Origin: a virus
IMG/VR virus record: IMGVR_UViG_3300025785_000080
Coordinates: 1 to 26,146 of that record
Reading direction: 5' to 3' (one strand)
Length of the DNA: 26,146 nt
Both the position numbers and the translations under genes were made by a program. The notes beneath the pieces were generated by a model that did not search any database, was not told the origin of the DNA, and worked only from the letters and a program-made list of their open reading frames with translations. Of the stretch, positions 1 to 26,083 are shown one piece after another; the stretch's first letter is position 1, and each line of letters begins with the position of its first letter.

Positions 1-1277
1 GAAGAACCATTTGAACCAGATGTACCTGAAGAACCATTACTACCACTAGTTCCCGATGTTCCAGAAGAACCATTTGAACCAGATGTTCCACTTGTTCCTG
101 AAGAACCATTTGACCCACTACTACCTGAAGTTCCTGAACTACCTGAAGTTCCTGAACTACCTGAAGTTCCTGAACTACCTGATGTACCTGAATTTCCACT
201 AGATCCATTACTACCTGATGTTCCCGAAGAACCATTCGATCCAGATGTACCTGAAGATCCATTTGAACCTGATGTGCCTGATGTTCCTGAAGAACCATTT
301 GAACCAGATGTACCTGAAGAACCATTACTACCACTTGTTCCTGAAGAACCATTTGAACCATTTGAACCAGATGTACCACTTGTCCCTGTACTACCTGAAG
401 TCCCCGAACTACCAGAAGTACCTGAACTACCTGAAGTTCCTGAACTACCTGATGAACCACTTGTTCCTGAACTTCCGTTAGAACCATTACTACCACTTGT
501 TCCTGATGTTCCTGAAGAACCATTTGAACCAGATGTACCACTTGTTCCACTACTACCTGAAGTTCCTGAAATACCGCTTGTTCCTGATGATCCATTAGAT
601 CCTGAAGAACCACTTGTTCCTGAAGAACCAGACGTACCACTTGTTCCTGTACTACCTGAAGTTCCTGAACTACCTGAAGTTCCTGAACTACCTGAGTTAC
701 CTGAACTACCACTTGAACCTGAGGTACCTGATGAACCTGAACTACCACTTGAACCTGAGGTACCTGATGAACCTGAAAAACCTGATGTTCCTGAGCTTCC
801 GCTACTACCATTAGAACCTGATGTGCCTGAGCTGCCAGACGTACCTGAATAACCTGAACTACCACTAGTACCCGATGTACCAGTACTACCACTAGATCCA
901 GATGTACCATTTACACCTGAAGTTCCTGAGCTACCTGAAGTTCCCGAACTACCTGATGAACCATCAGAACCACTTGTTCCACTAGTACCTGAGTTACCTG
1001 AACTACCACTTGAACCTGAGGTACCTGATGAACCTGAACTACCTGAAGTACCCGAACTACCTGATGTTCCTGAACTACCTGATGTTCCTGAACTACCTGA
1101 TGTTCCACTCAAACCTGAAGTACCACTTGTACCAGTTAATCCCGATGAACCACTAGTACCACTTGTTCCTGATGTTCCTGTAGAACCAGACGTTCCACTC
1201 GAGCCGCTTGTGCCTGAAGAACCTGAAGTCCCATTGATTCCTGAACTTCCTGAAGTACCACTAGTACCTGAAGTACC
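1..1277 (-). repeat. collagen-like Gly-X-Y array 2 (at least 142 triplets, continues off the edge)
   Basis: This is the same triplet pattern as array 1, in the same reading frame, after the internal globular domain. It is rich in short DNA-level repeats, for example an 18-nt unit encoding two GSS/GTS triplets several times around 124-180, and a 36-nt unit repeated at 709 and 745. The array is cut by the window edge. Confidence 0.9.
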
Positions 1278-4004
1278 TGAAGGTGCATTGAATGAAGTTA
1301 TAATATAAGAATAATTTGATGTTCCTTCGGTATAATATGTGAAAGTAATATCGGAATTATTGTGATTATTAGTGTAAAACTCAACATAAATTCTATCTGA
1401 TAAATCCAAATCTACTCCTGAGTAAAATGAATCAAAGAAATAAGAAAAAGGTAAAGATGTGTTATTTAAGATAACTACTCCTGAAGTGAATAATAAAGTG
1501 GATGTTCCTCCTGAAGTATATTTATAAATTTTTGCATAAACATCAATATCTGTCGCATTAGAATCATTACAAGTTATATTCAAATCAAAACTCCACACTC
1601 CTGCAGGAATGAAATCTGCGTCAGGAAAACCCGAATCAGTAGCATAACTTGCAAATAAAATATTATTAGTATTTCCACTAGCAGTAACAACAATACTTTG
1701 TTGTGAAGCTGTACTAGCAGTTGTAGACATTTCTTTGTATGTTGGGGTACCAAATGGAGAATTAGTATTTAATGATTGATTTAAATAATAAATCTGTCCT
1801 CCTGAAATACCGTCTCTACCGTTATTACCTGAAGTACCAGATGTACCACTTGTACCATTTGAACCAGATGTGCCACTAGTACCTGACGTACCATTACTTC
1901 CTGAACTTCCCGATGTTCCTGAAGAACCATCTGATCCTGAGGTGCCACTAGTACCTGATATTCCTGAAGAACCTGATGTACCACTTGTTCCACTAATACC
2001 TGAAGTACCTGATGAACCAGATGTGCCTGAAGAACCTGATGTACCTGAAGAACCTGATGAACCTGAAGAACCGGAATTTCCACTTGAACCACTTGAACCT
2101 GAGGAACCAGAAGTACCATTCGAACCTGAACTACCACTTGTTCCTGATATTCCTGAACTACCATCTGTTCCACTTGTACCCGATGTTCCGTCTATTCCAC
2201 TACTACCACTTGACCCTGATGTTCCTGAGGAACCAGAAGTGCCACTTGAACCTGAAGAACCACTACTACCACTTGACCCTGATGTTCCTGAGGAACCAGA
2301 AGTGCCACTTGAACCTGAAGTTCCGTCTATACCAGATGTTCCCGAAGAACCTGAATTTCCTGAAGTACCTGATGTTCCTGAAGAACCGCTATTACCTGAA
2401 CTACCATTAGAACCTGATGTACCAGAAGAACCTGAAGTACCGCTTGAACCTGAATCACCACTTGAACCTGAAGTTCCGTCTATACCAGATGAACCGCTAG
2501 TTCCTGATGAACCACTATCACCAGATGTACCGTCGGAACCCGAAGTACCATCTGTTCCTGATGAACCACTTGTTCCATTTGTCCCATTTAAACCAGATGT
2601 ACCTGAACTTCCGCTTGAACCTGAATTTCCTGAAGTACCAGATGAACCTGAACTTCCTGAAATACCTGAACTTCCTGAAGTTCCTGATGAACCCGACGTT
2701 CCTGAGGAACCAGATTCACCCGATGTTCCCGAAGAACCTGAAGTTCCATCTATACCCGAAGATCCAGATGTACCATCAACACCACTTATTCCTGAGCTTC
2801 CTGAACTTCCATCAGTACCTGAAGTACCTGATGTACCATCAGTACCAGAAGAACCCGAAGTACCATTTATACCACTTGTTCCTGAAGAACCTGAATTTCC
2901 TGAAGTGCCTGATGAACCAGAAGACCCTGAACTACCTGAAATACCAGAAGTACCACTTGAACCTGATGTTCCACTTGAACCTGAAGTACCACTTGAACCT
3001 GAAGTACCACTTGTACCTGATGATCCATTCAAACCAGATGAACCACTTGTTCCTGAAGAACCACTATCACCCGATGAACCATTTGTTCCTGAAGTACCGT
3101 CTGTTCCTGATGAACCACTTGTACCATTTGTTCCATCTAAACCACTTGTTCCTGAACTTCCTGATAAACCAGAACTTCCTGATGAACCAGAAGAACCTGA
3201 ACTTCCTGATGAACCAGACGTTCCACTCGAACCCGATGTTCCTGAGGATCCAAATGTTCCAGATGAACCTGAGCTACCTGAACTTCCGCTTGAACCTGAA
3301 CTTCCATCTGTTCCTGATGTTCCATCTATACCTGAAGTACCTGAAGAACCCGAAGTACCATCAATACCATTTATTCCTGATGTTCCTGAACTTCCATCGG
3401 TACCAGATGAACCATTCAAACCACTACTACCTGACGTACCACTAGTTCCTGATGTATTCGAATTTCCTGTTTGAAATATTCTCCAATTTGCATTGCTTCT
3501 TGTTATTCCACTTACTCCTTCAATTGTTGAACCAGACCAAGCAGAAAACAATGCGTGACCTGATGCTTTTTCAACTCCACCTACTCTATCTGATACGGTA
3601 TAACTTGTACTAGTTGATGTTATACATCCATCTGTTAATGCATTATTAAATAAGGTTTCATAATTATCAATTTGAAATTGGTAAACAGTTTGTGTTTCAT
3701 TAACATAAACTAACATACCAATTCTTCTTCTTCCAGAAGAAATTCCATCATTATTAAGTGTTAATCTATCTGTAAGTGCACCTGTAGGTCTAATATAAAG
3801 ACTAATCGGAATTGTATTTCCTGAATAATTTATATTTCCTGTTGCACCGTGTGTTGAAAAGTTTAAATCAGATAATAACCAAACTTCCATATAACCACCA
3901 ATGTTTAATACACTAAATGTATTACCATTTGTGTCTGTTGGGTTTACAGAATATGCGAATTGATTTATATTACCTGTTAATGGATTTTGATAATTAAAGC
4001 TCAT
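1..4004 (-). CDS. collagen-like tail fibre/adsorption protein (partial, C-terminus beyond window)
   Basis: One reading frame stays open from the ATG at 4004 to the window edge. I followed it codon by codon through 1263-1811 and 3423-3490 and spot-checked it elsewhere; it has at least 1334 codons and its stop lies outside. Layout: residues 1-179 are a non-repetitive head; about 180-735 are Gly-X-Y triplets, mostly G-T-S, G-S-S and G-S-N; about 736-909 are a globular, Asn/Ser/Thr/Tyr-rich domain that begins GGQIYYLNQS; from 910 to the edge there are more Gly-X-Y triplets. Proline is almost absent from the triplets. Collagen-like arrays are known in phage tail and side fibres, so an elongated trimeric virion fibre is the likely role (inference). 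The start is preceded by AT-rich sequence without a Shine-Dalgarno site. It is the last gene visible in the tail block, 42 nt after the preceding stop. The receptor-binding part may lie in the missing C-terminus. Confidence 0.85.
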   Translation of the reverse strand, partial: MSFNYQNPLTGNINQFAYSVNPTDTNGNTFSVLNIGGYMEVWLLSDLNFSTHGATGNINYSGNTIPISLYIRPTGALTDRLTLNNDGISSGRRRIGMLVYVNETQTVYQFQIDNYETLFNNALTDGCITSTSTSYTVSDRVGGVEKASGHALFSAWSGSTIEGVSGITRSNANWRIFQTGNSNTSGTSGTSGSSGLNGSSGTDGSSGTSGINGIDGTSGSSGTSGIDGTSGTDGSSGSSGSSGSSGSSGTFGSSGTSGSSGTSGSSGSSGSSGSSGSSGLSGSSGTSGLDGTNGTSGSSGTDGTSGTNGSSGDSGSSGTSGSSGLNGSSGTSGTSGSSGTSGSSGTSGSSGTSGISGSSGSSGSSGTSGNSGSSGTSGINGTSGSSGTDGTSGTSGTDGSSGSSGISGVDGTSGSSGIDGTSGSSGTSGESGSSGTSGSSGTSGSSGISGSSGSSGTSGNSGSSGSSGTSGLNGTNGTSGSSGTDGTSGSDGTSGDSGSSGTSGSSGIDGTSGSSGDSGSSGTSGSSGTSGSNGSSGNSGSSGTSGTSGNSGSSGTSGIDGTSGSSGTSGSSGTSGSSGSSGSSGSSGTSGSSGTSGSSGSSGIDGTSGTSGTDGSSGISGTSGSSGSNGTSGSSGSSGSSGNSGSSGSSGSSGTSGSSGTSGSSGTSGISGTSGTSGSSGISGTSGTSGSDGSSGTSGSSGSNGTSGTSGTSGSNGTSGTSGTSGNNGRDGISGGQIYYLNQSLNTNSPFGTPTYKEMSTTASTASQQSIVVTASGNTNNILFASYATDSGFPDADFIPAGVWSFDLNITCNDSNATDIDVYAKIYKYTSGGTSTLLFTSGVVILNNTSLPFSYFFDSFYSGVDLDLSDRIYVEFYTNNHNNSDITFTYYTEGTSNYSYIITSFNAPSGTSGTSGTSGSSGINGTSGSSGTSGSSGTSGSTGTSGTSGTSGSSGLTGTSGTSGLSGTSGSSGTSGSSGTSGSSGTSGSSGSSGTSGSSGSSGNSGTSGTSGSDGSSGSSGTSGSSGTSGVNGTSGSSGSTGTSGTSGSSGYSGTSGSSGTSGSNGSSGSSGTSGFSGSSGTSGSSGSSGSSGTSGSSGSSGNSGSSGTSGSSGTSGSTGTSGTSGSSGTSGSSGSNGSSGTSGISGTSGSSGTSGTSGSNGSSGTSGTSGSNGSNGSSGTSGSSGSSGTSGSSGTSGSSGTSGSTGTSGTSGSNGSNGSSGTSGSNGSSGTSGSNGSSGTSGTSGSNGSSGTSGSNGSSGTSGSNGSSGNSGTSGSSGTSGSSGTSGSSGTSGSSGSNGSSGTSGTSGSNGSSGTSGTSGSNGSSGTSGSNGS
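1800..3467 (-). repeat. collagen-like Gly-X-Y array 1 (about 185 triplets)
   Basis: The minus strand encodes a nearly unbroken 9-nt periodicity of Gly-X-Y codons, with Gly as GGT, GGA or GGC, X usually Thr, Ser, Leu or Ile, and Y usually Ser or Asn. The only break I noticed is near the start, where Asn replaces a Gly at about residue 183. Synonymous codons are shuffled, so most of the array is old, but 2197-2322 holds a recent 63-nt tandem duplication. Confidence 0.9.
2197..2322 (-). repeat. perfect 63-nt tandem duplication inside the collagen array
   Basis: The 63-nt block at 2197-2259 is followed directly by a copy at 2260-2322. Sixty-one of the bases match in order, and the copies diverge only at the last two positions. 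The unit is 21 codons, or seven Gly-X-Y triplets, so frame and triplet phase are kept. Confidence 0.85.
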
Positions 4005-4046: not shown

Positions 4047-7000
4047 TTAGAAACCATTGGCTCTAAAATAATAATCGTGATTACTTGGTGTATTTGGTAC
4101 CCCTGCATTCCAACCATTACCATTTGATTCAAGATACATTCTATAATGTCCATTTGTCCAGTTCGATCCCGTATAGTTAATATCAATTGCACTAATACCC
4201 GGATCAACTTGTGTTGTATTAAGTGCTGTTGGTAAACTTTGATAATTTATTCCAAACGTTTTATAAACTGTATTATTTGTCAATGATATTGGAACTAAAT
4301 AAGCAAAATTTACGATACCTTTAATTGTACCTTGTGGTACTTTAGTTGTTTCTACTAAATAAGTATTTATTGGGTTGCCATATGTATCAGTTCCACCATT
4401 TGCTTGTGGTACTACTTGTTGAATAGCATTTGTAACATTTGTTGTTCCTGTAACAAAACCTGGCCAATCCATCCAAATTGCCAAATCAGTAGCGTTAATT
4501 CCTAATAATCCTGATGCAGCAAGTCCATACCAACCATTAACAGAGTTTGCTAACATATATGAACCTATATCAGAATTATTTGGACCTGTAAATAATGAAT
4601 CATCATTAGATTCCATAAACAATATACCAGTACTTAAAGCTGGTGTTGAACTAGGTGTTACTGTAGGTGTCATAGTTGGAGTTATACTTGGTGTAGGACT
4701 TAACGTTGGTGTATTAGTAATCGTTATTGTAGGTGTAACTGTTGGTGTATTTGTAGGCGTAGTTGTAGGTGTTCCTGTATTCGTTAAGGTTGGGGTTACA
4801 CTTGGAGTATTTGTAAATGTCACACTCGGAGTAACCGTTGGTGTATTCGTCGGTGTAGTTGTAGGTGTATTAGTTGGGCTACCAGTTGGTGTGTTAGTTG
4901 GTGTATTAGTTGGTGTATTAGTCAATGTGATAGTAGGTGTAGGTGTAATAGTTGAAGTTACACTCGGTGTTGGTGTATGTGTTGGTGTTTTAGTTACAGT
5001 AACAGTTGGAGTCACTGTTGGAGTATTAGTTGGTGTTACTGTAGGTGTTGCAGTATTAGAAGGTGTTGGGGTTGGTGTTGTTGGAGTAGTATTAACCACT
5101 AAAGTACCTCCTGAAATAGTACAGAATGGTGGCAATATGCTTGATACTACTGATAATAAAAATTCGAAACTTTTTATTGTACAATCATTAGGACCATATT
5201 TGTATGATGTGAATTTAATTTTTTCTGTTCCATTTGTATCGGTATAAAAATTATATGACATTATAGGACTAATAGTTGTTGACCCACTTGTTTGTGGTAA
5301 ATAACCATTAAGTACTCCAACAGCATCTCTTGTATAACCTGAATGAGTGTTGATATAATTAACTGTATTTACTATGGCCGTTTTCCATAATTCTTTTATT
5401 ATATTTTCATTTTCACTATATGTGACATACGGTGGTTCAAATTCTGAAGTTTCATATAATTTTGTAGAACCTGTGACAAATGTTTGATTATTAATTATAG
5501 TTGTTCCTGTAATATTAGTGGCGCCACTAATCATAACACAACAAGTAGCATCTCCACTATAAACAATACCATTGATATCAAAATTTGGATAAAATTCGAT
5601 TGCTTTCAAATGGTCACAAGTTGGCACATCTGCTATTGAATTATTTATATCATCTTCAAAGGTTTGATCAGATGGATACACATCTTCTGTTAATGTTTCT
5701 GGTTGACAACCATACTGATATTGATATTTCGATCTTCTAATTATATTATTTTGTACTAAGTTACCGCCCGTCCACAATGTTGTGGCAGGAATAACTTGAT
5801 CTAAAACTTGCATCCAATAAGGACTCATTCGTGTAATAAAATCGCTCAAATCCGCAAGCTTATATGGCGTGAAACTTGTGTTGTTTATATATGAATGATA
5901 AACATCTTCTAATCTTATATAATTCTTTCTATATTTTATTGTATTAGAATTAATAATTTGTTCGCTCAAAACATTGTCAATAAATTGTGCAAATGTTAAA
6001 CCTGTCTGTGGTGTTAGTTGATTTTCGGAACCAAAATACAATAATAAATTTCTTGATTTGGTATAAACATCATACTCTACTCCTTGAGATGGTGATAAGT
6101 AAACACTTATATTTTTTCTTGGTAAAGTGAATGGTGATAATTCATTCAGAATTTCGTTTTGTTCGTTATTTATTTCACTTTCTAATTGATAACCAGTTTT
6201 TAAACCTGGTAATGTTCTATATATATCATAATAATCTTCACCATATGTATATGGTGCATTTTTTGTTATGATATATTTTGTATAACCTGTTAAAACTGAA
6301 TTATCAGTATCAATAACTAAAGGAGATCTATGTTCTGAAGTTAAATCATACCAACCTGAACCTTTTTGAAAGAATACATCGCTAGTAGGGTCAAACGCGC
6401 TTTGTGGAAAATAGTTATTATTTATATCCACAGGATATCCTGAATAATTGAAACTTGTATAACCAGTTGTACCTGAAATATTATAGATATAGTTAGTCGA
6501 ATCAAATATACCATTATTATGTACTAATGTTCCTGAAATGGCACCATAGATATCTTCTTCTAAATTGAATGATTTTGGGAATTTAGTAATTGTATAAATG
6601 TATTCATTAATATTAATTAATGGTTCAGGAGCACCTAAAAATCTTAAGAAAAATTCAATAGAATTTCTTGTTCCTTTTGATTTATATATGTAAGCTAAAT
6701 TTACTAATAGTCTTCTGTAAAATTCATATTCAGCTTCAATTAATGTTTTACCAACACTTGTTCCATCATACTGAGCTGCATTTCTTGAATATAAAGTTTT
6801 ATCAAGTGTTTTCTCATCAAATAAATTAACCGTATCTAAACCCAAATTAGATGATAAATTTTTTAACAATACATCAGGTAAATTATTAATTCCATCATAA
6901 CTTATGTTTCTCATATAAGCTATGTTATCAATATATTTTTTTACTTCGTCAAAACTTTGACCATAGATTTGTAAAATAGATTGAAATTTTTGGTCAGGTG

Positions 7001-8048
7001 TATCATATTCAATTAAAGAATTTGAAGTTAAAAAATTAATAATTAAATTTGATTTATAATCATCAATAATATTAGCAGTATTGCTCAGATTATTTGTATA
7101 TATGTTATAATCAATTCCTATAATTTGAATATTCCAACCGTCCTTTGCTACGGGCCAAGTATGTTGAATAGGTTGTAAAGTTTCTGCTGAACCATCATAA
7201 CTTGGTAATGGAACTTGAAACGTTGCAGTATAAATAGGAGTTGTATGTCTATTTAATAAACAACTTTGTAAATCATCTAAACCATTATAAAATGTTTCAA
7301 CTAAACTATCATTTGGTCTAATTAAAAAACCATCGTTAAATGTTGTATTTCCACTGAATGGGTTACCGGCCACATTAACAGTAATCACATTCTGAAAATT
7401 CGGTTCAACATAACCAATAACATTGTAAGTGTCACCACTTATATCAAGAACATAATTTAAATAAGCTGAGTAAAAATTAGCTATTGGATTATTAGTTTCA
7501 GGTATTATTTGACTACCGGGTGAACTTATAACAATATCCAAAGGATTATAGAATTTAGCTGCTTCTATATTAAGTGTAGTAAATTTTAAATTACTATTAT
7601 AACTTATGTTAAAAGCCGTATATGTGTTTGTACCTTTATTAGAAGATGGGTCAACATATAATGCTGCAGGAAAACTATCAATAATTTGTTTTATATCTAA
7701 AGAAATTCTACTTGCTAAAGAACCAAATAATGAATTAGCACCAGCATCTGCTTTTGAATTATTAAAGACAATTTGTTGGTCGATCTGTTCTTGTGTTTGT
7801 GTTGTAACACCGCTCACTTGAACATTTAAATTATCAAAATTAAAGAATTTAGAAAACGCACCCGTTTTGAATGTTTTGTTGTCTTTTTGAACCACAACAT
7901 TATCCAATGCAAAATTAGTATTCGTTAATTGTGATGTACCGTTTGTGATTTGAACACCAACTAACTGGTCAGCGAAGGTATCAGCTCCGCTTGCCGCTAA
8001 TCTTGGGTCGATTACTCTTGCTGTGTATGTATTTCCTGTTGTTCCCAT
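4047..8048 (-). CDS. large tail/baseplate protein with tail-protein-I-like motif and Thr-Pro linker
   Basis: This is a 1333-residue virion protein (inferred from context). Residues 1-440 are not recognisable. Around 440-485 there is a segment with [18 protein letters not shown], which resembles a motif of the tail protein I / baseplate wedge family that usually follows the gp6/J gene. That link is my inference, and the homologue would normally sit directly after gp6, whereas here five genes intervene. Residues about 985-1135 are a low-complexity Thr-Pro linker ([10 protein letters not shown]-like units), and 1136-1333 form a separate Gly/Asn/Thr-rich C-terminal domain. A flexible spacer carrying a distal domain fits a fibre attachment or adsorption role. 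The start overlaps the previous stop by one base (TAATG), which points to translational coupling. No signal peptide or membrane segment was seen. Confidence 0.75.
4645..5095 (-). repeat. Thr-Pro low-complexity linker coding repeat
   Basis: About 450 nt encode alternating Thr-Pro with Val, Asn, Ser and Ile at the variable places. Short direct repeats are visible, such as a 12-nt unit encoding NTPT in a row at about 4890-4920. The antisense frame at 4891-5247 is open only because of this repeat. The region joins two folded parts of the 1333-residue protein. Confidence 0.85.
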
Positions 8049-16737: not shown

Positions 16738-18570
16738 TTAATATGTAGTCGAACCTAAGGTTTTAACTCTCACCAAAATATCTTTATTTGGGAATCTACA
16801 TTGGTGAATTTGATTAGATTGCATATATATAATTTGGTCTTGTTGTTGTATTTCTAACGTTGTGTTGTCAACATATGGTTGAGACACTTGTGCAGACGAA
16901 TATGGACTACCAACTTTATTATAGACTCTTATATCGACTACATTCACAACACCGTTTAATTGGTTTATAATCTGTGTTAATTCACCAACAAATAACGGGT
17001 CACCCATTTTTCTTTTATCAACAGAAAGATATGTCGTTGCATTTGAAATAATACTGCTTATAACATCCGTTTGATTTATATTTTTATCAATTACAACATC
17101 AATTTGAAATCCTAAGTCTATCACTTGAGCAGCTACAACTGCTAAATAATCATTAACCATTCTATATTGTGACAAATACTCTAAAATATTTTTTTGAAGT
17201 GTTGTTGAAACAGTATCACTCAAATTACCTAAATCATCGTAGGATAATAAATTTATTTGTATTTTATTATTAACTTCCATAACACCAACCTTAGCAGGTG
17301 CACCATATGTTGCTGGCATTTTTTGTATAAGTGACATATAATCGTGAAGAGTTACTGCTCTATTTTGTGCAGAAAAATTATATGAAACCATATTTCTAAT
17401 TTCATCAATTGAAGGTTGATCCGCACCACCTACGGCCGGTATTGGATTTGTAATACTTAATGATTGAATAACCTGATTATTAATTGAAGTATTGGGGCCT
17501 TGAACCACGAAATTAACATTATCGACACTTGTAATAGTGTTAACACCTAAATTTGAAGCTTTACCTCCACCAACTCGATATTGTACAAATAATGTTGAAT
17601 TAACAGGAGGTATTCCACCCATTGACATATTATTCAAATATGTAGCAAGATTAACTTGTAATGTACCGTTGATATAGTTATCTAAATTTGAAAGTGGATC
17701 CACATTTCCTGAACCAAATGTTATAGAAAAATAACCTTCAGGTGTATATTCAGTAACGAATTTATTATTAACAGTTAAGTAAGTACCCGCTTTAAAATTA
17801 CTTTGGTCGGATACCGATGTTGGGTCAGGTACGAATACACTATTTTGTACTAAAGAATCTACCTCATACCATTTATTAGGACTTGTAGCAAATTCAGCTG
17901 TTGTTGGATTTGAACTATAATTAGTACCGTCTTTGTGTATGATAGAAGTTATACCTAAAACGTTTTGTTCAGGTAAATAAAGTTTTAAAAATGGTACCTG
18001 ATCGGTATTTGTAATTACTCTTCTATAAACGTTTGTTACACCATTTACCACAGGTTCTCTTTTGGTTATTGTATATGAAACTAATCTATTATTACTATCA
18101 AAATTCGGTATCTTTAATCGGTTAGGAGTACCATCAATAGTAAAAGGATTTGAGAAATCGATATCGTTAATTGTTTCGAAAGTTTGTCCACCACCTGAAA
18201 CTTGTGCTCCTGCTTTTAAGACACCTTCATATCTCATATCATCTTTATCACCATTTATTGGAACCTTAATTGAAAAATCAACTAATGTAACTGAAGGTCT
18301 TGTATTTGGTATTTTTAAACCATAAGTTTTTGCAATAAAAAATAATGATTGTCTTTGTTGTGCATAGTCCAACATTGTTTCTTGCCAAACTCTATCTATG
18401 TGGAAATGTAAGTTATCCGATATCGCTGCGTTTAAATCAAGCAATACTGAATATATCGACGCATCGTTAAAATTTTGAATAAGATTTGGATAATAGTTTT
18501 GTGTAAAGTTTACTAGTTCCTGTCTTAATCCCGCGAAATCCCTTACCGCGTATGATATTTGTTTTCCCAT
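16738..18570 (-). CDS. 6: baseplate wedge protein gp6 (baseplate J-like)
   Basis: The 610-residue product matches the T4 gp6 / P2 J family, which forms the iris ring of wedges around the baseplate hub. Support: the N-terminal pattern with DFAGLRQEL, followed by the Asn/Asp-rich segment and a long helix with HFHIDRVWQETMLDYAQQR; and, in the second half (about residues 378-425), the family hallmark GGADQPSIDEIR ... NRAVTLHDYMSLI. The size is close to that of T4 gp6 (about 660). It lies one base after the stop of gp25, its usual partner in the wedge, so the two are probably co-translated. No unusual truncation or insertion was seen. Confidence 0.9.
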   Translation of the reverse strand: MGKQISYAVRDFAGLRQELVNFTQNYYPNLIQNFNDASIYSVLLDLNAAISDNLHFHIDRVWQETMLDYAQQRQSLFFIAKTYGLKIPNTRPSVTLVDFSIKVPINGDKDDMRYEGVLKAGAQVSGGGQTFETINDIDFSNPFTIDGTPNRLKIPNFDSNNRLVSYTITKREPVVNGVTNVYRRVITNTDQVPFLKLYLPEQNVLGITSIIHKDGTNYSSNPTTAEFATSPNKWYEVDSLVQNSVFVPDPTSVSDQSNFKAGTYLTVNNKFVTEYTPEGYFSITFGSGNVDPLSNLDNYINGTLQVNLATYLNNMSMGGIPPVNSTLFVQYRVGGGKASNLGVNTITSVDNVNFVVQGPNTSINNQVIQSLSITNPIPAVGGADQPSIDEIRNMVSYNFSAQNRAVTLHDYMSLIQKMPATYGAPAKVGVMEVNNKIQINLLSYDDLGNLSDTVSTTLQKNILEYLSQYRMVNDYLAVVAAQVIDLGFQIDVVIDKNINQTDVISSIISNATTYLSVDKRKMGDPLFVGELTQIINQLNGVVNVVDIRVYNKVGSPYSSAQVSQPYVDNTTLEIQQQDQIIYMQSNQIHQCRFPNKDILVRVKTLGSTTY

Positions 18571-18571
18571 A

Positions 18572-19039
18572 TTATATGTTTATTATTACAAAATCTGAGG
18601 ATGTAAATGCCCCATTATTTACTGTATAATTTATTTTTACTGTTGCAGTGTATGGCGCATCTGATAATGAACCTACTCTAAATAATCTTGCATCTTCGTT
18701 TGTTCCTGAAGTTTGTATATTATAAGTTGGATCATTCTCCGCATTTTGAATATCAATTGATTGTATATCCAAGTTAGGTAAATAAGTTTTAACAGCATTT
18801 CTTATATCGGACTCAATTAAATCAAAACTAACAGCATCATTTTGTTCAAAAACATATGTGTATATTCTTGTACCGAAATCAGGTAAAAAATATCTACTAC
18901 CTTTTTCAGTTAAAATTAAATGTAATAAATTCGCTCTAATTTCTTCAGCTGAAGAAGTTGTCATTGCAAGATATTGTCCTGTACTACTATCTTGAAATGG
19001 GAAATTAATACCATATGTGGATGTTAAATCGACTGCCAT
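18572..19039 (-). CDS. 25: baseplate wedge protein gp25
   Basis: The 155-residue product belongs to the gp25/W (GPW_gp25) family, small baseplate wedge proteins with a lysozyme-like name but a structural role in joining gp6 and the sheath. The family signature is visible as a helix and turn with EEIRANLLHLILTEKGSRYF followed by LPDFGTRI (about residues 33-60), then a helix with SFDLIESDIRNAVKTYLPNL. It is the first gene after the terminator at 19094-19123 and therefore likely opens the tail operon. The start is preceded by AT-rich sequence with a TATTTATT variant of the recurrent leader motif, four bases before the ATG, and no Shine-Dalgarno site. Confidence 0.92.
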   Translation of the reverse strand: MAVDLTSTYGINFPFQDSSTGQYLAMTTSSAEEIRANLLHLILTEKGSRYFLPDFGTRIYTYVFEQNDAVSFDLIESDIRNAVKTYLPNLDIQSIDIQNAENDPTYNIQTSGTNEDARLFRVGSLSDAPYTATVKINYTVNNGAFTSSDFVIINI

Positions 19040-19142: not shown

Positions 19143-19409
19143 TTAGTTATTAATACCCTCGTTAATCACTTTAATATAAGTTGATTTAGGAGAAAGACCC
19201 GAAAGTCTTTGTATTTCTTTACCATCTTTTAATAATACTACCGTAGGTACTGTTCTAACTCCAAAATTAGTCGCTAATTCATAATCCGAATCAACATCGT
19301 GCTCACTGAATAATACATTAGGAAATTGAGATTTTACATCATTTATTATAGGGGCCAAAGCTTTACAAGGGCCACACCAACTTGCTGAAAATTTTTTTAC
19401 TTCTAACAT
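19143..19409 (-). CDS. thioredoxin
   Basis: A small thioredoxin of 88 residues, using the internal ATG at 19409. The active site WCGPC is at residues 11-15 and the cis-proline motif TVPT at 53-56 (Pro55), followed by the usual beta strands. It is shorter than bacterial thioredoxins (about 105) because the first strand and helix are missing or reduced. A longer start at 19451 would add 14 unlike residues and overlap nrdA by 20 bases; the 19409 start leaves a 22-nt gap with an A-rich leader, so I prefer it. Placed directly after nrdB and nrdA, it most likely reduces the C-terminal cysteines of NrdA. The terminator at 19094-19123 follows it. Confidence 0.88.
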   Translation of the reverse strand: MLEVKKFSASWCGPCKALAPIINDVKSQFPNVLFSEHDVDSDYELATNFGVRTVPTVVLLKDGKEIQRLSGLSPKSTYIKVINEGINN

Positions 19410-19417
19410 TTTTTCGT

Positions 19418-19432
19418 TTTTATTATAAATAT
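19418..19432 (-). promoter_or_regulatory. AT-rich leader motif before the thioredoxin gene
   Basis: The minus strand reads ATATTTATAATAAAA, identical over 15 bases to the sequence before the gene at 8968. Its first base is also the last base of the nrdA stop codon, and it lies eight bases before the thioredoxin ATG. It may be a promoter or an AU-rich translation element. Confidence 0.25.
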
Positions 19433-21210
19433 TATGCTTCACAGCTAACACAATCCGGATTCATAGCTTGTGCTGCAATATCACCTCTTAATACCGATTC
19501 GGTTCTCATATAATAAAGTGTTTTAACACCTTGTTTCCAAGCTTCCAAGTGAACTTGATTAATCCATTTAGGGTCTGCTATAGCAGGGAACGCCAAATTT
19601 AATGAAACCGCTTGGTCAATATACTGTTGTCTAATACCTGCTTGTCTAACTAAATCTAATTGATTAATTTCTTTAAATGTTTTGAATACATCTTTGATAG
19701 AAACAATTTTTAATTTATTGTCTTCAGATACTTCTTTGATTTCAACAACTTTAGAATCTATGAAACACCATTCATCTAAAAAATCTAATCCCAATACTGA
19801 ACCACCGTCTGCTAAAATTTGATCCCAAACTTCTTTAGTGTTTTTACCAATCTTACGTAATACTCTTTCTAATTCAGGGTTTTTACGGATAAAGGTACCT
19901 TTTGCTGTTTGTTCTGTGAACACATTAGCAGCCCAAGGTTCGATACCACTACTAACATTACCACTCAATTTAGAATTTGATACTGTAGGTGCCACAGCTC
20001 TTAAGTGTGTATTTCTCATACCAAAATCTTTACACCATAATGGTTCACCATATTCTTTAGCCATATCTCTACTCGCTCTTTCAGATTCAATCTTAATTTG
20101 AGAGAAGATTTTACGAGTTTCAAATTGAGCAGGTAAACCTTCAAATGGTATTCCTTTTTGTTGTAAGTATGTATGCCAACCTAAAACACCTAAACCTAAT
20201 GCACGACCTCTCTCTGCAGAACGTACCGCATTTTCAAATCCTCTCATATTTTTAGCTCTTTGAATGAACTCCTCTAATACACCATCTAAAAACATTGTTG
20301 ATGTGTACACTAAATCGGTATCTTTCCATTCATCGTATTTTGCTAAATTTAAAGAACTTAAACAACAAACAAATGAATGTTGCTCATCTGTATGTAAAAC
20401 AATTTCTGAACAGATATTAGTCATATGAACTTTCAAGCCATTCTTTTTGTACATATCAGGATTATGTTTGTTAACATTTCCTTTGTACATAATATAAGGT
20501 TCACCTGTTGCTTTTCTTTTTTGTAATAACTTACTCCATTTTCTTCTCGCTTCAGAATCGCCTTCCTCTAATTTTTTCATAAATTTATCACTAACTACAA
20601 CACATTGATGTAAGTTTAATGATTGACGATTCACATCGCCTTTTGGTTCTCTGATTTCCAAGAAATCTTCAAAATCTTTGTGCTCAATTTTGATATTGAC
20701 TGAAGCAGCACCTCTACGAACTGATCCCTGATTTGTTGCAAGAATAGTTGAATCATAAATTTTGATAAATGGTACTACACCGTCAGATGTTCCATTACCA
20801 GTTATTTTTGAACCTGCAGGTCTAATCATATTGATACCAACTCCAACTCCACCGCCGTGTTTAGCCAATAACATTAATTCTAAATTCTTGTTTCCGATTT
20901 CGAAGATACTATCTCCTACATCGATACCAAAACAACTAATTGGTAAACCTCTATCAGTTCCTGTATTTGATAATACAGGGGTTGCCAAACATAACCATCC
21001 CTTCCAAATGTAATCGAAGAATTTAGTTGCTAATGCAGGTTTACCTAATCTTTTAGCAACCGCTGTTGCCACTCTCCAATACGCATCTTTAGGTTTTTCA
21101 CCATCTTGTAAATAACCTTTTGAAATGGTTTTAACATATATTTCAGTGTTAGCCCATTCAGGGTAGTCGACACCTATTTCCCAACCGAGTTCTTCTCCGT
21201 AGTATTTCAT
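19432..21210 (-). CDS. nrdA: class I ribonucleoside-diphosphate reductase, alpha subunit
   Basis: The 592-residue catalytic subunit converts ribonucleotides to deoxyribonucleotides. Visible catalytic residues: Cys93 (in SCFGID), the NICSE motif with Asn265, Cys267 and Glu269, Cys283 (partner of Cys93), the radical-relay pair Tyr566-Tyr567 in LYYMRTES, and a C-terminal CVSC (Cys587/Cys590) that passes electrons from thioredoxin. The protein begins directly with the core barrel and has no N-terminal ATP-cone, so it should lack dATP feedback through the activity site (family knowledge). Residues about 479-505 look like an extra segment of roughly 25 residues between LDFL and DVFKTFKEINQ compared with other NrdA proteins I know. 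It lies 20 nt after nrdB and just before the thioredoxin gene. Confidence 0.95.
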   Translation of the reverse strand: MKYYGEELGWEIGVDYPEWANTEIYVKTISKGYLQDGEKPKDAYWRVATAVAKRLGKPALATKFFDYIWKGWLCLATPVLSNTGTDRGLPISCFGIDVGDSIFEIGNKNLELMLLAKHGGGVGVGINMIRPAGSKITGNGTSDGVVPFIKIYDSTILATNQGSVRRGAASVNIKIEHKDFEDFLEIREPKGDVNRQSLNLHQCVVVSDKFMKKLEEGDSEARRKWSKLLQKRKATGEPYIMYKGNVNKHNPDMYKKNGLKVHMTNICSEIVLHTDEQHSFVCCLSSLNLAKYDEWKDTDLVYTSTMFLDGVLEEFIQRAKNMRGFENAVRSAERGRALGLGVLGWHTYLQQKGIPFEGLPAQFETRKIFSQIKIESERASRDMAKEYGEPLWCKDFGMRNTHLRAVAPTVSNSKLSGNVSSGIEPWAANVFTEQTAKGTFIRKNPELERVLRKIGKNTKEVWDQILADGGSVLGLDFLDEWCFIDSKVVEIKEVSEDNKLKIVSIKDVFKTFKEINQLDLVRQAGIRQQYIDQAVSLNLAFPAIADPKWINQVHLEAWKQGVKTLYYMRTESVLRGDIAAQAMNPDCVSCEA

Positions 21211-21230
21211 AATTTATATAAATTTTTTTT

Positions 21231-22226
21231 TTAAAAAATATCGTCCCAATTTTCTCCTTCACCTGCCTTACTGTAATCAGTAGGTCTCATAGCAAAGAAA
21301 TCTGTGTGAGTTAATCCTCCTGTTAAATGGTAAAACCATTCTAACTGTTCAGCTTTCTTTTTATTGAATTCAAAAGCACTTTCATAACCTAATTCATTCA
21401 ATTTTTCATTGATTCTTTGTGAAATAAAATGTTTCAGATCTTCTTTTTTAAGATTTTCTAAATCACCCATTTCAAACATTTTATCGATATAATCAAATTC
21501 TAATTGTTGAATTAATTTTGCTGCTTCTAAAATATCATTTTTTGCATCATTCAATAAATCAGGAAATTCTTGACACATATGTCTGAATAATTGACATCCC
21601 ATTTTGGAATGTAATGATTCATCGCGTACGCTCCATTTCATTTGTTGTCCAACACCTTTCAAAAAATTTCTCATTTGAAAAGAATATAAAACCGCGAATG
21701 ATGAGTATAATGATACACCTTCAGCGAATGCTGAAAATATTGCCAAACTTTTACCAACTTCTTTTCTTGCCTGTGATTTAGTATCTAAATCTTTTGGAGT
21801 CCAATCTGCACTTGTTTCAGTTAACAATTCAAATCTTGCTTTAGTTGCAGGTTCGTGTAAAAATCCAGCAAAATCATCTAAACCTAATGTTTCATTAAGA
21901 TATGAATATGCTATTGAATGTATAGTTTCTTGTGAACCAAACGCCATAGCCATTTGTCTTATTTCGTGTTTTGGGAACCATTTAGTAACCATACCTGTCC
22001 AATAATCTGATACGGCGCATTCTGTTTGTGCAAAACCTAATAAGATATTTCCGACTAAATGTTTTTCTGATTCGTTCAAATTTTCATTCCAATCTTTAAC
22101 ATCTCCCTGCATTGGAATTTCAGTGTGTAACCAAAATGCTTGCATTTGTTTTAACCAACCTTCATTGTAATAATCGGGATATTCAAACGGTTTAAAAGGT
22201 ATTCTTTCTGTAAATAATTTACTCAT
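21231..22226 (-). CDS. nrdB: class I ribonucleoside-diphosphate reductase, beta subunit
   Basis: The 331-residue radical-generating subunit. The metal ligands can be placed by spacing against E. coli NrdB: Glu69, Glu100, His103, Glu169, Glu203 and His206, with the radical Tyr at 107 (ETIHSIAY). All spacings (31, 3, 34, 3 residues) agree with the E. coli enzyme. The first ligand is Glu instead of the usual Asp, while the Tyr is kept; see findings. The C-terminal tail ending NWDDIF is the expected NrdA-docking peptide. It lies 16 nt after the helicase and 20 nt before nrdA, so it is cotranscribed with replication genes. The start is preceded by a run of A, without Shine-Dalgarno. Confidence 0.95.
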   Translation of the reverse strand: MSKLFTERIPFKPFEYPDYYNEGWLKQMQAFWLHTEIPMQGDVKDWNENLNESEKHLVGNILLGFAQTECAVSDYWTGMVTKWFPKHEIRQMAMAFGSQETIHSIAYSYLNETLGLDDFAGFLHEPATKARFELLTETSADWTPKDLDTKSQARKEVGKSLAIFSAFAEGVSLYSSFAVLYSFQMRNFLKGVGQQMKWSVRDESLHSKMGCQLFRHMCQEFPDLLNDAKNDILEAAKLIQQLEFDYIDKMFEMGDLENLKKEDLKHFISQRINEKLNELGYESAFEFNKKKAEQLEWFYHLTGGLTHTDFFAMRPTDYSKAGEGENWDDIF

Positions 22227-22242
22227 TTTTTTTGTTTTAATT

Positions 22243-23622
22243 TTAGTTTGCTCCTTCTCTTACTCTTCTTGTTCTTTGTAAAGCCTCAGCTGCTCTTGCT
22301 ACATTATTTTGTGTTCTTTGTTCTTCGTGCCCTAATAGTGTACTTTGTGAATCGGTATCAATTAATAAGAATTCGTTATTAAACTTACAATTTGCCCAAA
22401 CAATACCATCTCTACCTATTCTTGATTTAATCAAAGTTAAAGTTGCTAAGTTATGTTCTTTTTGTTCTAAAGTTTTGGCAATAGATAATATTACGTGTGC
22501 AATTTGTGCTTTTTTAATTGAACCACCCATTTGGTCACCTGTTACAATTTCAGAAGAAATTGAACCACGATTACCTTGTGTTGCTGTCCACAAAGCAATA
22601 TCAAATTCGCCAGTCATAACCTCTAAAGATCGCATAATTGAACCTTCACCTTTCCATTCTTCATCAAACCCATTTTTTTCTGGTGCAATACAATCAACAT
22701 AATCAATAAGCAATAAATCAATTTTATAACCTTCGTTAGTTAATTTTCTTAACTTATTTTTGATTTCAGACACTGTTACATCACCGCTTGGTAATTTAAT
22801 CAATTTTAAGAAACCTTTATTATCCTTTTGCATTTCGTTCACCTTAGCAATAACTTCCTCTTTGTGTTCAGGTTGTTGATCGGGTGCGATTTCTGACCAA
22901 ATAGTATAATGTTTTCTTTTGATGTCATTCGGATTATCTTCAAAGAAAATTTGTACTACACCTAAACCGTGATTATAGGCTGTATTTGCAAATTTAGTCA
23001 TTAAAGTTGTTTTTCCTGTACCAGTTGGAGCCAAAACAACACCTAATTGTCCACGTCCTAAACCACCGTTTAATAAGTTATCTAAACCTACAACTCCTGT
23101 TGGTATTGGATTTCTTACATCCTTTTCTAAAGCCTCTTCAATATTGTGGAAAACATCTGTAACATCATCATTCATTACACCTATTTGTAATGCCTTTTGA
23201 ATGATTTCTTCAATTTTATTGTAAGATTCAAAAGCACCATTTTCAATAATGGAATGAACGTTTTTTAACTCTTTCTTTAAATGTTGTTGTCTACAAAAAT
23301 TCAAAGCGGTTTCTTTAGGAAAATCAGATTGTTGTTCGTTATTCTTAATCTCATTCAAAGTATCTAAATGAGTTTTAGCCATTACTGAATTTTCATTTTC
23401 AGCTTTGATTTTTTGTTCTAATGAGGTATAATCGGGGATTTTTTTATATGTTTGATTTAGTTCTTTAATATTTTCCATAATAAATCTGAAAGACATATTA
23501 TCAAAATATTTGCTATCTAAAACATCAATTATTGTTTCGCCGTACTTTTTATCTTCAATAATTGCTTTAATCAACGATTGTTGAAATGAAAAACCTAATT
23601 TTCCAAAATTCTTTTCTTCCAT
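22243..23622 (-). CDS. replicative DNA helicase (DnaB/gp41-like)
   Basis: A 459-residue hexameric 5'-3' fork helicase. The N-terminal helical part (about 1-150) begins with LGFSFQQSLIKAII, as in DnaB-like N-domains. The RecA-type motor follows: Walker A APTGTGKTT at 198-206 and Walker B LLLIDYVD at 303-310, with the catalytic Glu227 in FFEDNP after the second strand. Near residue 350 WTATQGNRG fits the H3/sensor region. The C-terminus (ALQRTRRVREGAN) is basic and probably disordered. Context with uvsX, the flap exonuclease and RNR supports the T4 gp41 role; whether a primase is present cannot be judged here. It starts 10 nt after the preceding stop, with an A-tract leader. Confidence 0.9.
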   Translation of the reverse strand: MEEKNFGKLGFSFQQSLIKAIIEDKKYGETIIDVLDSKYFDNMSFRFIMENIKELNQTYKKIPDYTSLEQKIKAENENSVMAKTHLDTLNEIKNNEQQSDFPKETALNFCRQQHLKKELKNVHSIIENGAFESYNKIEEIIQKALQIGVMNDDVTDVFHNIEEALEKDVRNPIPTGVVGLDNLLNGGLGRGQLGVVLAPTGTGKTTLMTKFANTAYNHGLGVVQIFFEDNPNDIKRKHYTIWSEIAPDQQPEHKEEVIAKVNEMQKDNKGFLKLIKLPSGDVTVSEIKNKLRKLTNEGYKIDLLLIDYVDCIAPEKNGFDEEWKGEGSIMRSLEVMTGEFDIALWTATQGNRGSISSEIVTGDQMGGSIKKAQIAHVILSIAKTLEQKEHNLATLTLIKSRIGRDGIVWANCKFNNEFLLIDTDSQSTLLGHEEQRTQNNVARAAEALQRTRRVREGAN

Positions 23623-23632
23623 AGTTTTTTTT

Positions 23633-24076
23633 TTATAATTCGTATCCTAAATAGGAGGTTTCCAAATCCTCAGATGATAAAATGTCAGTTAAATCTGCCA
23701 ATATTCTCTTAAGTTTTGGACGAATATCTACCGTATATCTAACCTTTGGATGGTAGTAATATGCGGGGAATATTCTTTGAATAAATACATCATCGTCAAG
23801 CTTAATTTCCAATAAAAAATGTTCTTTTTCACCGGTATTTGATTCTTCCACATTGTCTGAATTTAGGAAAAAATTTAGATTTTCGCATAGAAAATCGGAA
23901 CTTTTTATTTTCAAATCATGTGAAATATCTTCACAAATATTTTGAACATAATAATGTAAATCCATCGAACATCTTGCTTGTTCGTTATGTTCCCTAACGT
24001 TGAAAAATCTTTGACAAATAATATGTCCTTCTAATGACAACAGAAACTCAAACTTTGTAAACTCTTGGTTACTCAT
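23633..24076 (-). CDS. unknown protein with internal duplication (147 aa)
   Basis: I do not recognise this 147-residue acidic protein. Its two halves are related: residues 11-56 and 87-134 align. From QR22-23 and QR100-101 onward the alignment needs no gap, with identical residues at a fixed offset of 78 (Gln22/100, Arg23/101, Phe25/103, Arg35/113, Asp39/117, Ile47/125, Asp50/128). The pattern is a hydrophobic strand, QR.F, a loop, then R...D and an amphipathic helix. A polar linker (about 57-84) joins the halves. The gene overlaps the exonuclease end by eight bases and lies 10 nt before the helicase, so it is surely coexpressed with replication proteins. A role as an accessory DNA-replication or nuclease-regulating factor is possible, but nothing in the sequence shows it. 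Confidence 0.75.
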   Translation of the reverse strand: MSNQEFTKFEFLLSLEGHIICQRFFNVREHNEQARCSMDLHYYVQNICEDISHDLKIKSSDFLCENLNFFLNSDNVEESNTGEKEHFLLEIKLDDDVFIQRIFPAYYYHPKVRYTVDIRPKLKRILADLTDILSSEDLETSYLGYEL

Positions 24077-25088
24077 AATCTTTAATTTTTATAATTTTTT
24101 TATTTTTTTCTTTTCTTGTTAAACGAAGGAAAGGGTTTAAAAAGTTTATCCACGCGTCATCTGATTTTGGTAAAACGCTGAATAATCCATCCTCCACCAT
24201 CATTTTCATAGTATTTTTGTATGAACGACCTTCTGGATCCAATGGCTCGTTAACTAAAAGAAGTATATTTTCTTTCGCCTCGTCAGTTAGAAATGGATTG
24301 TCTAAATTCACGATTTGATTGTTAATATCGAAAAATTCATTACCAAACACACCATATTTGGTTACACCTGTTAATAAATTAGCTAATAATTTATTGTATT
24401 TGTCTTGTTCAAAAAGCAAATTACCTTTTTCTTGGATTTCCGCAACCGAAAGTTTTTGTGTTTTGATTTCAGGAAATAGAGAAATAAGTCTTTTAACTCC
24501 CATACCCTTAATTCCTGCAATAGAATCTGAATTATCACCACATAACATTTTGATAATTCTAACATTTTCAATTAGAACTTCTTCGTGTTCATAAACAATC
24601 ATTTCGTTTTGTTTATAAAGTTTTCTGTGGGATGGATTGTAAATTTGGGTATTGTCTGAAACTAACTGTGTTAAATCACCGTCTGAAGAATAGATTATCT
24701 TTTTCTCATTTGGTGAGTTTTGTGTATAATAAGCAATGCAATCATCTGTTTCGCAAAATGGATATTCTCCTTGTCTTACGTAAATTTCTTCAAGATATTG
24801 CTTTACTCTTTGTCTTTGGTATCTATATGAGTTTAATTCTTCTTCACTTCTAACCCTTTCACGCCTATTTTCCTTGTAGTGGACATATAACTTCTTTCTA
24901 GTTTGTGAACTTTCTTCACCATCCCAAAATACTACTATTTTATCTAATTGATATGCATCAAACGATCTCCTAAGAGTATTAATAAAATGATAGATTCCTC
25001 CAAAATGTGTGCCTTTATAAAAGTAATTTTTTGCACCATAAAAACCAATCGTAAGTAAATTATCTCCATCTACAAGTAAAACTGACAT
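24069..25088 (-). CDS. 5'-3' exonuclease / flap endonuclease (T4 RNase H-like)
   Basis: The 339-residue product has the FEN-type PIN domain and the helix-3-turn-helix DNA-binding motif. Acidic metal-binding residues are visible: Asp7 and Asp9 (VDGDN), Asp56 (FWDGE), Asp115-Asp116 (ETDDC), Asp136 and Asp138 (SSDGDL), and Asp185/Asp188 (GDNSD). The H3TH motif follows at about 191-206 (AGIKGMGVKRLISLFP). Such enzymes remove RNA primers and 5' flaps during lagging-strand synthesis, matching the neighbouring helicase. Length and order agree with the T4 Rnh (305) and DNA polymerase I exonuclease families; I do not distinguish between them. The C-terminus is very basic (RLTRKEKNKKIIKIKDYE). It lies 17 nt after uvsX. 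Confidence 0.88.
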   Translation of the reverse strand: MSVLLVDGDNLLTIGFYGAKNYFYKGTHFGGIYHFINTLRRSFDAYQLDKIVVFWDGEESSQTRKKLYVHYKENRRERVRSEEELNSYRYQRQRVKQYLEEIYVRQGEYPFCETDDCIAYYTQNSPNEKKIIYSSDGDLTQLVSDNTQIYNPSHRKLYKQNEMIVYEHEEVLIENVRIIKMLCGDNSDSIAGIKGMGVKRLISLFPEIKTQKLSVAEIQEKGNLLFEQDKYNKLLANLLTGVTKYGVFGNEFFDINNQIVNLDNPFLTDEAKENILLLVNEPLDPEGRSYKNTMKMMVEDGLFSVLPKSDDAWINFLNPFLRLTRKEKNKKIIKIKDYE

Positions 25089-25105
25089 TAAAAACCATTA
25101 TTGGG

Positions 25106-26083
25106 TTATTGTTCTTCTTCTGTTACAACTTCTAAATCAACTGCGTCTGCAACATTAACGCCTAACATTTTACTAATATAATCACCACAATCCTTTTTGT
25201 AAAGCTCAATTGATTTTTTTTCTTCAGTATCATCTTTGCCTGACATAAAACCGTGTGATGTTACCAAGATACGTCCATCTTCATATCCTAAACCATTTAC
25301 GTGGTTTTTCATAATTGAGATTTTGGTTCTTGTTGCAATCTTTACTTTTCTCTTATCTTTTGTGATAGAAATTTTAGTAGTTCCTGCACCTTTTTGATTA
25401 CCAAATAAGAATACTAAAGTTGAATTTAACCAAATGGCTTCTCCACCTTTTGCTTTGATTTTTGGTTGTCCAAATGGATTGTCAGGTAATTCTACCCAAG
25501 GTTGATTAACGATGATTAAAGTATTGGTATACTTTTTATCATCTCTCCTCGAACCTGATATACGTTGGTTGATACCCATACCGATCTTATCAGCTAAAAC
25601 TGATGCATTGTGTTGTTTACCACCTTTACCATCGTAAGTCATTTTACAAGGAACTGAACCTACTGAATCCCACATAAACAATAAATCGTGAGGTAAATCA
25701 CCTTTATCTTGTGCATCTAATAATTCATTAATATAATCCGTAATTTGTTCAATGTATTCAAAATCACTATTGAAAAGATAGTCTCCACTTTTATCGAATC
25801 CCATCAATTCAGCGTGTTCCCAACTCCATTTTTGTTCAGTAATTAAGAAAACAGGAATGATTCCTTTCTTCTGAGCATCAACAGCTGCTTTTACAAGTGC
25901 GGTTGTTTTACCTGTATCCGAGTGACCTAAATACATATTGATATGACCAATTGCAGGTCCAGGTATTCCTGTTGCATCTAAAAAAGCATCACCTAAATCT
26001 AAGAATCTATCTGGTTTGTAGGTAGCTTCTTTAGAGAATTTTGCCTTTATTGATTCGAAACTATTTTTCTTTATTCCTGCCAT
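25106..26083 (-). CDS. uvsX: UvsX-like RecA-family recombinase
   Basis: The 325-residue ATP-dependent strand-exchange protein of T4-like phages. Walker A is GHSDTGKTT at 53-61, with a Glu at 83 (ITEQ) in the place of the RecA catalytic Glu, and Walker B LLFMWDS at 134-140. Downstream, NQRISGS and the NQPWVELP segment fit the RecA L1/L2 regions, followed by ISIMKNHVNGLG. It is somewhat shorter than T4 UvsX (about 390), with a short N-terminal part before the Walker A strand. It is the first complete gene of the replication module in the window; the leader is AAACAAAATT with no Shine-Dalgarno site. Confidence 0.92.
   Translation of the reverse strand: MAGIKKNSFESIKAKFSKEATYKPDRFLDLGDAFLDATGIPGPAIGHINMYLGHSDTGKTTALVKAAVDAQKKGIIPVFLITEQKWSWEHAELMGFDKSGDYLFNSDFEYIEQITDYINELLDAQDKGDLPHDLLFMWDSVGSVPCKMTYDGKGGKQHNASVLADKIGMGINQRISGSRRDDKKYTNTLIIVNQPWVELPDNPFGQPKIKAKGGEAIWLNSTLVFLFGNQKGAGTTKISITKDKRKVKIATRTKISIMKNHVNGLGYEDGRILVTSHGFMSGKDDTEEKKSIELYKKDCGDYISKMLGVNVADAVDLEVVTEEEQ

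Follow-up and report, generated by a model that had tools for sequence, protein, structure and literature searches.

The window analyzed here, a complete IMG/VR virus record of 26,146 bases (IMGVR_UViG_3300025785_000080), carries at one end a gene for a protein that is built largely of Gly-X-Y triplets and has no proline within them. We conclude that this protein represents a widespread, collagen-like, proline-free fiber family that is new among phage collagen-like fibers. On balance, we favor its assignment as a modular, probably homotrimeric, tail- or baseplate-linked fiber of a T4-like, contractile-tailed phage from an uncultured group. An earlier note, made from the letters of the window, had proposed a long, proline-free, collagen-like phage fiber with a knob between two arrays, and the present analysis bears this out. 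A non-exhaustive search of titles and abstracts in the open-access literature returned no proline-free or Gly-Thr-Ser phage collagen; the papers cited below by PMC number are cited from excerpts.

The fiber gene and its architecture

The Gly-X-Y fiber gene of the window is real. Glycine keeps its register without a single miss across 184 triplets in array 1 and 142 in array 2 (326 of 326), while the longest run of glycine at every third residue was 12 among 2,000 shuffles of the full fiber protein and three among 15 other open reading frames (ORFs) of the window. As such runs are defined by glycine, only the free third codon position is informative: the first two positions of the glycine codons are GG in all 326 cases and the third departs from the consensus in 37%, so the protein pattern of the arrays has been kept while the DNA drifts. 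A chance pattern or a frameshifted non-gene is ruled out by the shuffles, the other ORFs and the codon positions. The stop codon that the earlier note had named as a possible refutation is likewise absent from all 1334 codons up to the contig end. Pfam family PF01391 scores the protein at 444.5 bits against a gathering cut-off of 27.2, which is weak as proof for a sequence of such low complexity. On the opposite strand, a proline-rich open frame of 534 amino acids (aa; 1870-3474, plus strand) mirrors the array codons and is probably not a gene.

The protein runs from an N-terminal head through array 1, the knob and array 2 to the contig end (Table 1). Its boundaries differ slightly from those first estimated: array 1 has 184 triplets rather than about 185, and its final triplet, GGQ, overlaps with the beginning of the knob; the head has 185 residues rather than 179 and the knob 172 rather than 174; the count of at least 142 triplets for array 2 stands.

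Table 1. Features of the fiber gene and of its recognizable neighbors in the window.
Feature	Position	Strand	Remarks
Fiber gene	3..4004	-	ATG at 4004; 1334 codons, stop-free to the contig end (base 1); 3' part missing
N-terminal head, residues 1-185, probable virion anchor	3450..4004	-	Conserved in 50 IMG/VR loci
Array 1, 184 Gly-X-Y triplets, residues 186-737, no proline	1794..3449	-	Pfam Collagen PF01391
Knob, residues 738-909 (172 residues), predicted beta jelly-roll	1278..1793	-	Predicted model and relatives
Array 2, at least 142 Gly-X-Y triplets, residue 910 to end	1..1277	-	Interrupted by the contig end
Neighbor gene, 1333 aa, Thr-Pro-rich repeat at about 4620-5087	4047..8048	-	Gene just upstream of the fiber
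Baseplate wedge protein, gp6/Baseplate_J-like	16738..18570	-	PHROG 219, 6; Pfam PF04865
Baseplate wedge protein, gp25-like	18572..19039	-	PHROG 261; Pfam PF04965

Composition and position rules of the arrays

Proline is absent from all 326 X and 325 Y positions of the window arrays (0 of 651). It averages 4.5% over the 15 other ORFs and reaches 6.6% in the adjacent one, so the phage has no general avoidance of this residue. The residues that are present are placed very unevenly: threonine occurs 133 times in X and 5 in Y, isoleucine, leucine and valine together 26 times in X and never in Y, and aspartate 3 times in X and 19 in Y. The initial description of X and Y as almost only Thr, Ser, Asn, Leu and Ile thus needs amending for aspartate, which is commoner (22) than leucine (7). 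Charged residues comprise 21 Asp, 1 Glu, 1 Arg and no Lys in array 1 and a single Asp, with none of Glu, Lys or Arg, in array 2. Among 20,000 random swaps of X and Y, a test that assumes an independence of triplets which repeats violate, the observed bias was matched 0 times for Thr, 8 for Asp and 0 for Ile/Leu/Val.

The same rules extend across the family. From 131 collected proteins, 49 near-copies were dropped and the 66 with at least 20 triplets were kept; these are related and hence not independent cases. Threonine prefers X over Y in 66 of 66 (pooled, 8,815 in X and 605 in Y). Aspartate prefers Y in 53, X in 3 and neither in 10 (58 in X and 1602 in Y), and Ile, Leu and Val prefer X in 60, Y in 1 and neither in 5. 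Proline stays below 1% in 58 of the 66, with 45 in about 33,000 positions overall. Two features that are usual in collagens without strictly defining them are therefore missing from the window arrays, namely proline in X and/or Y, as in known collagens generally, and threonine or glutamine in Y, as in those of bacteria and phages.

The window arrays contain no copy of the O-glycosylation motif of Bacteroidetes, D-S/T-hydrophobic, which, as a Bacteroidetes motif, may not be that of the host. Glycosylation of threonine, once suggested as a stabilizer of the arrays, also fits poorly with the preference of this residue for X, as the precedent lies in Y (PMC8968730). Array glycosylation of some other kind is possible.

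The knob and its two kinds of array

A search with the knob as a single sequence gave no confirmed relative. With phmmer, default settings reported no knob match, and turning the filters off recovered L026 at E 9.6e-19. A two-sequence profile (window and L026) then matched 162 stretches, of which 80 loci, many of them near-copies, were kept for the counts given here. Arrays flank the knob on both sides in 67 of these 80 and on one side only in 5, with the contigs of L075, L122, L123 and L125 ending at or just past the knob. A second context is seen in L068, L070, L072, L103, L114 and L060-L062, where an ordinary non-collagen segment precedes the knob and a shared LTCDTLSGC-like or LTCETLSGC-like segment follows.

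An AlphaFold2 model of the knob from 55 sequences (predicted local distance difference test score, pLDDT, 92.6; predicted template modeling score, pTM, 0.89) is confidently assigned to the CocE/PepX-type jelly-rolls. Its best solved match is the C-terminal jelly-roll of cocaine esterase, CocE (3puh_A; Z 15.1, root-mean-square deviation 2.5 over 159 aligned residues, Foldseek E 1e-6), against a Z of at most 9.3 for unrelated structures. The likeness to CocE and to X-prolyl dipeptidyl aminopeptidase is one of predicted fold, at 15% identity, and the window knob comes without their enzyme domain. The TNF-like trimer fold gave only weaker matches, with query-based template modeling scores (TMq) of about 0.3-0.4. 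No sequence relative was found for the window knob in Pfam (0 families at E up to 1), for the knob profile among PDB sequences (0 matches at E up to 1), or for the window and L127 knobs among named phages. The three best viral models in BFVD are proteins of uncultured Caudovirales (A0A6J5SWS4, A0A6J5NH96 and A0A6J5N627; E 6e-17 to 2e-15, TMq 0.86-0.87, 22-32% identity) that the database names "Collagen triple helix repeat". The fold was also seen apart from tailed phages, in a Solivirus sp. protein (A0A3G5AFS0; Foldseek BFVD, 28% identity).

The most telling relatives carry the knob within ordinary collagen repeats. The knob of L115 has one match in the phage collection, the uncultured, 642-kb huge phage LR756502 (29% identity), in which it likewise stands between Gly-X-Y arrays. 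Those arrays are of a different kind, however, being of GATGSQG or GATGSQGIQG type with glutamine in Y and threonine 1 time in X and 67 in Y, and the N-terminus, judged by eye, is a different one. L127, a remote knob relative, has four triplets (GPTGPPGMDGIV) ahead of the knob and GPIGPTGATG behind it. As the arrays of LR756502 and the Ser/Thr arrays surround the same knob, two kinds of array occur on one scaffold. This is our best evidence that the Ser/Thr arrays serve as collagen stalks and also that they form a distinct variety of them.

The head family and the C-terminal tips

The head search recovered 50 related IMG/VR loci, 40 of which contain at least one run of at least 8 triplets; the 34 that were aligned share 43-66% identity with the window head. 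Among the ten loci without arrays, four break off short of 300 residues and one, L035, nearly duplicates L033 in truncated form; the remaining five (L004, L030, L033, L036 and L050) are complete and carry other content behind the head. L050, for instance, has SHAEG repeats and a YadA head match of 16.5 bits, below the cut-off. PHROG matches of the head are weak: of 35 members, 27 match family 23630, of unknown function, and 8 match the "virion structural protein" family 24134 (best E 1.5e-4). The head has no match in the collection of named phages, its profile reached a best E of 0.056 among PDB sequences, and the one strong viral structural match, A0A6J5L6I5, is a homolog at 47% identity. A single relative was found among bacterial and archaeal genome contigs; its contig, 3.2 kb long, belongs to the bin of an archaeal metagenome-assembled genome (MAG), which we do not accept as evidence of host. 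The 242-kb phage contig of L040 (G004) carries two head-bearing genes, whose open frames span 2004 and 1370 aa.

Some relatives preserve the C-terminal end that is missing from the window. L030, with the same head and no array, ends in a Peptidase_S74 chaperone domain, and a Pfam scan of ten relatives' tails placed S74 above the cut-off in L071, L100 and L112 and C1q in L104. In the others, S74 fell below the cut-off in L054, only chance-level matches were found in L026 and L040, and nothing was found in L011, L077 and L128. A PHROG scan of seven tails gave two strong, function-less matches in L026, two weak ones in L104 and none in the other five. S74 and C1q domains form trimers, and the fiber is probably a homotrimer.

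Comparison with known collagens and phage fibers

The closest described counterparts are EPclA and EPclB, prophage collagen-like side tail fibers of Escherichia coli O157:H7, in which Gly-X-Y stalks likewise lie between folded domains of a phage fiber; EPclB links three globular domains by two stalks, and a trimer has been demonstrated for EPclA (PMC3368898). The collagen region of EPclA, by contrast, spans about 111 residues, with proline in about half of X, many charged residues and Thr/Gln in Y (PMC3368898), whereas the 977 array residues of the window hold no proline, hardly any charge but Asp, and threonine in X. The supposition that proline in Y sustains known collagens does not fit those of bacteria and viruses, which have proline chiefly in X and either Thr or Gln in Y, the viral ones with charged residues (PMC3368898); threonine accounts for 48.3% of Y in Gram-positive and 31.6% in all bacterial collagens (PMC8968730). 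Bacterial collagens of the Scl2/BclA type share the Gly-X-Y arrays, mostly without hydroxyproline, and differ in having proline in X and threonine or charged residues in Y (PMC8968730). "Triple collagen repeats" are also mentioned among the structural genes of studied myophages (PMC7029224).

The NCBIfam equivalog NF038329, for the streptococcal LPXTG adhesin Scl2/SclB, passes on the window protein (397.3 against 325). We regard this match as an annotation trap that is probably driven by composition. LPxTG occurs in 0 of the 131 family proteins, many of which are truncated, as is the window protein at its C-terminus.

Array length and variation

The contigs of 32 of the 50 head relatives end within the fiber gene, 5 of them without a run of at least 8 triplets before the end; L045 was left out of the 32, as its frame ended only at the limit of the fetched sequence. 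Assemblies thus tend to break here and exact triplet numbers are uncertain, and at the contig end of the window, too, the assembly most likely broke within the repeat. Longer relatives include L026 (2,733 aa), the open frame behind L045 (3,748 aa) and L115, with 1,015 triplets in total and 639 in its longest unbroken run. In the L115 group, 661 triplets follow the knob in 7 of 7 contigs and 353-354 precede it in six, L118 being cut off. Within the family, the exceptional length claimed for the window fiber does not hold: with at least 326 triplets it ranks 19th of 66 proteins, many of them truncated like itself. EPclB, moreover, offers a precedent for a pair of rods linked by a knob (PMC3368898). 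At the collagen rise of 0.29 nm per residue (PMC3368898), the window arrays would extend about 160 nm (array 1) and at least 124 nm (array 2), and those of L115 883 nm, values that depend on the triple helix and on the assembled repeat numbers.

Within the indel survey, 21 of 54 similar pairs were aligned, 9 without an internal gap. Seven of the 10 near-identical pairs with internal gaps (four of the seven share L121) have only gaps in multiples of 9 nt; the exceptions are 1-nt gaps in L106/L112 and L043/L040 and a 114-nt gap in L075/L076. Multiples of 9 also make up 60 of 71 gaps in L105/L130 and 5 of 7 in L012/L016, divergent pairs that we left unused, as repeats this divergent align ambiguously and with a bias toward the repeat period. 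The 9-nt steps were dropped as proof of selection, for recombination between 9-nt-periodic repeats yields them anyway.

Genomic neighborhood

The fiber gene lies on the same strand as the gp6-like and gp25-like baseplate wedge genes, whose nearest relatives by name are in Flavobacterium phage immuto (gp6-like) and Microcystis phage Mel-JY01, both at 27% identity. Directly upstream of the head, a gene with a Thr-Pro-rich stretch (at least 12 Pro in 60 residues) is present in 51 of 51 loci, at a spacing of -1 to 46 nt from the fiber gene; a proline-rich repeat gene and a usually proline-free fiber gene therefore travel together. The repeat in the window is of PTxTPT type, which places a proline-rich stalk next to a stalk devoid of proline. 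The 1392-aa neighbor had no match among named phages. For the fiber itself, the best stretches of the 25 PHROG matches listed fall wholly or mostly within the arrays, and phrog_8745 spans 101-283. Adjoining the gp25-like and gp6-like genes, the region 19143-26083 (minus strand) encodes a thioredoxin-like protein (by eye), ribonucleotide reductase alpha and beta, and DnaB-like helicase, 5'-3' exonuclease-like and RecA-like proteins, the last three below NCBIfam cut-offs.

Weighing the interpretations

In the fiber that we propose, the N-terminal head would dock on the virion and the Gly-X-Y arrays would make up an extended stalk. The likeliest form of this stalk is a collagen-type triple helix free of proline, kept in register by folded domains that sit at either end and between the arrays. 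The jelly-roll knobs would stand as side lobes along the stalk, possibly binding glycans (the shared fold by itself shows no function). The C-terminal tip, lost at the contig end, would trimerize the chains and touch the host, and the fiber would thereby be expected to bind a receptor. A weak helix might be aided by folded end clamps, great length, cold water or an unknown modification.

Several points weigh against this proposal. Host-guest peptides lose 2-15°C for each proline and up to 21°C for each hydroxyproline replaced, although charge pairs can compensate (PMC7824840), so a stretch with neither imino acid nor charge pair should be very unstable. Threonine in X and aspartate in Y reverse the arrangement of known collagens. 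The CocE/PepX-type jelly-roll predicted for the knob is no known trimerization domain, and the capping role once suggested for it finds little encouragement there. Eight of the 80 knob loci have no array at all, and six of the ten scanned tails have no Pfam match above the cut-off. The head was modeled poorly (pLDDT 68), and all its PDB structure matches have a Z of at most 3.5, with no fold assigned. The fiber and the gp6-like gene are 12.7 kb apart, and none of the six intervening genes has an informative family match. Finally, the trimer, the triple helix and the virion location are what we infer rather than observe directly.

The chief alternative, which we consider unlikely, retains the same fiber and takes the arrays as disordered Gly/Ser/Thr tethers between its folded parts, which would widen the search volume without forming rods. 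Glycine at 33%, a remainder of nearly all Ser/Thr and the lack of proline recall the composition of engineered flexible linkers; array length differs among close relatives, and under established stability rules the helix should be weak (PMC7824840). A tether, however, requires no glycine register, yet not one of 326 glycines is missed and runs extend to 639 triplets in L115. Nor would X and Y be expected to differ as the pooled threonine and aspartate counts do, and remote knob relatives hold ordinary collagen repeats in the same slot.

It is improbable that the arrays are single-chain polyproline-II (PPII) or polyglycine-II bundles, as in phage S16 gp38 or the snow flea antifreeze protein. 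Glycine-rich PPII bundles are known from phage adhesins, but GGX repeats give bundles and GXX repeats a triple helix (PMC13243192), and the window has one GG dipeptide in the 552 residues of array 1 and none in the 425 of array 2. No turn-like breaks interrupt at least 184 triplets, which leaves no obvious place to fold back.

Very improbable, in our judgment, is a role outside the tail, as a capsid decoration or a phage-expressed protein of the host surface. The six unassigned genes that separate the fiber from the recognized baseplate genes would allow it, and bacterial surfaces, too, bear collagen-like proteins (PMC8968730); against it stand the strand shared with the baseplate wedge genes, the Thr-Pro-rich gene upstream throughout the loci, the single head relative in genome contigs, the fiber-type C-termini of some relatives and the lack of LPxTG described above. 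Least probable of all is an assembly or repeat-expansion artifact inflating an ordinary short fiber, for which the frequent contig ends and the 1-nt frameshifts between near-identical pairs could be cited, but the arrays recur in dozens of contigs and the triplet counts of the L115 group agree.

Implications

Current triple-helix rules derive largely from sequences with proline, hydroxyproline or charge pairs, whereas this family keeps its glycine register and its X and Y preferences to about 1,000 triplets with none of these. If the arrays are not triple helices, the Pfam and NCBIfam collagen label on environmental phage proteins misleads. If they are, those rules lack something, and the arrays yield a simple, all-natural code for collagen. 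We therefore raise, as a tentative suggestion, that a widespread class of fibers in environmental phages may use a G-(T/S/I/L/V)-(S/D/N) code, with the customary positions of Thr and Asp reversed, to fold into triple helices of hundreds of nm without proline, hydroxyproline or charge pairs. Such fibers, if they exist, would to our knowledge be among the longest virion fibers, reaching up to about 0.9 micrometer in L115 (1,015 triplets), and would represent a new chemistry for stabilizing the collagen fold.

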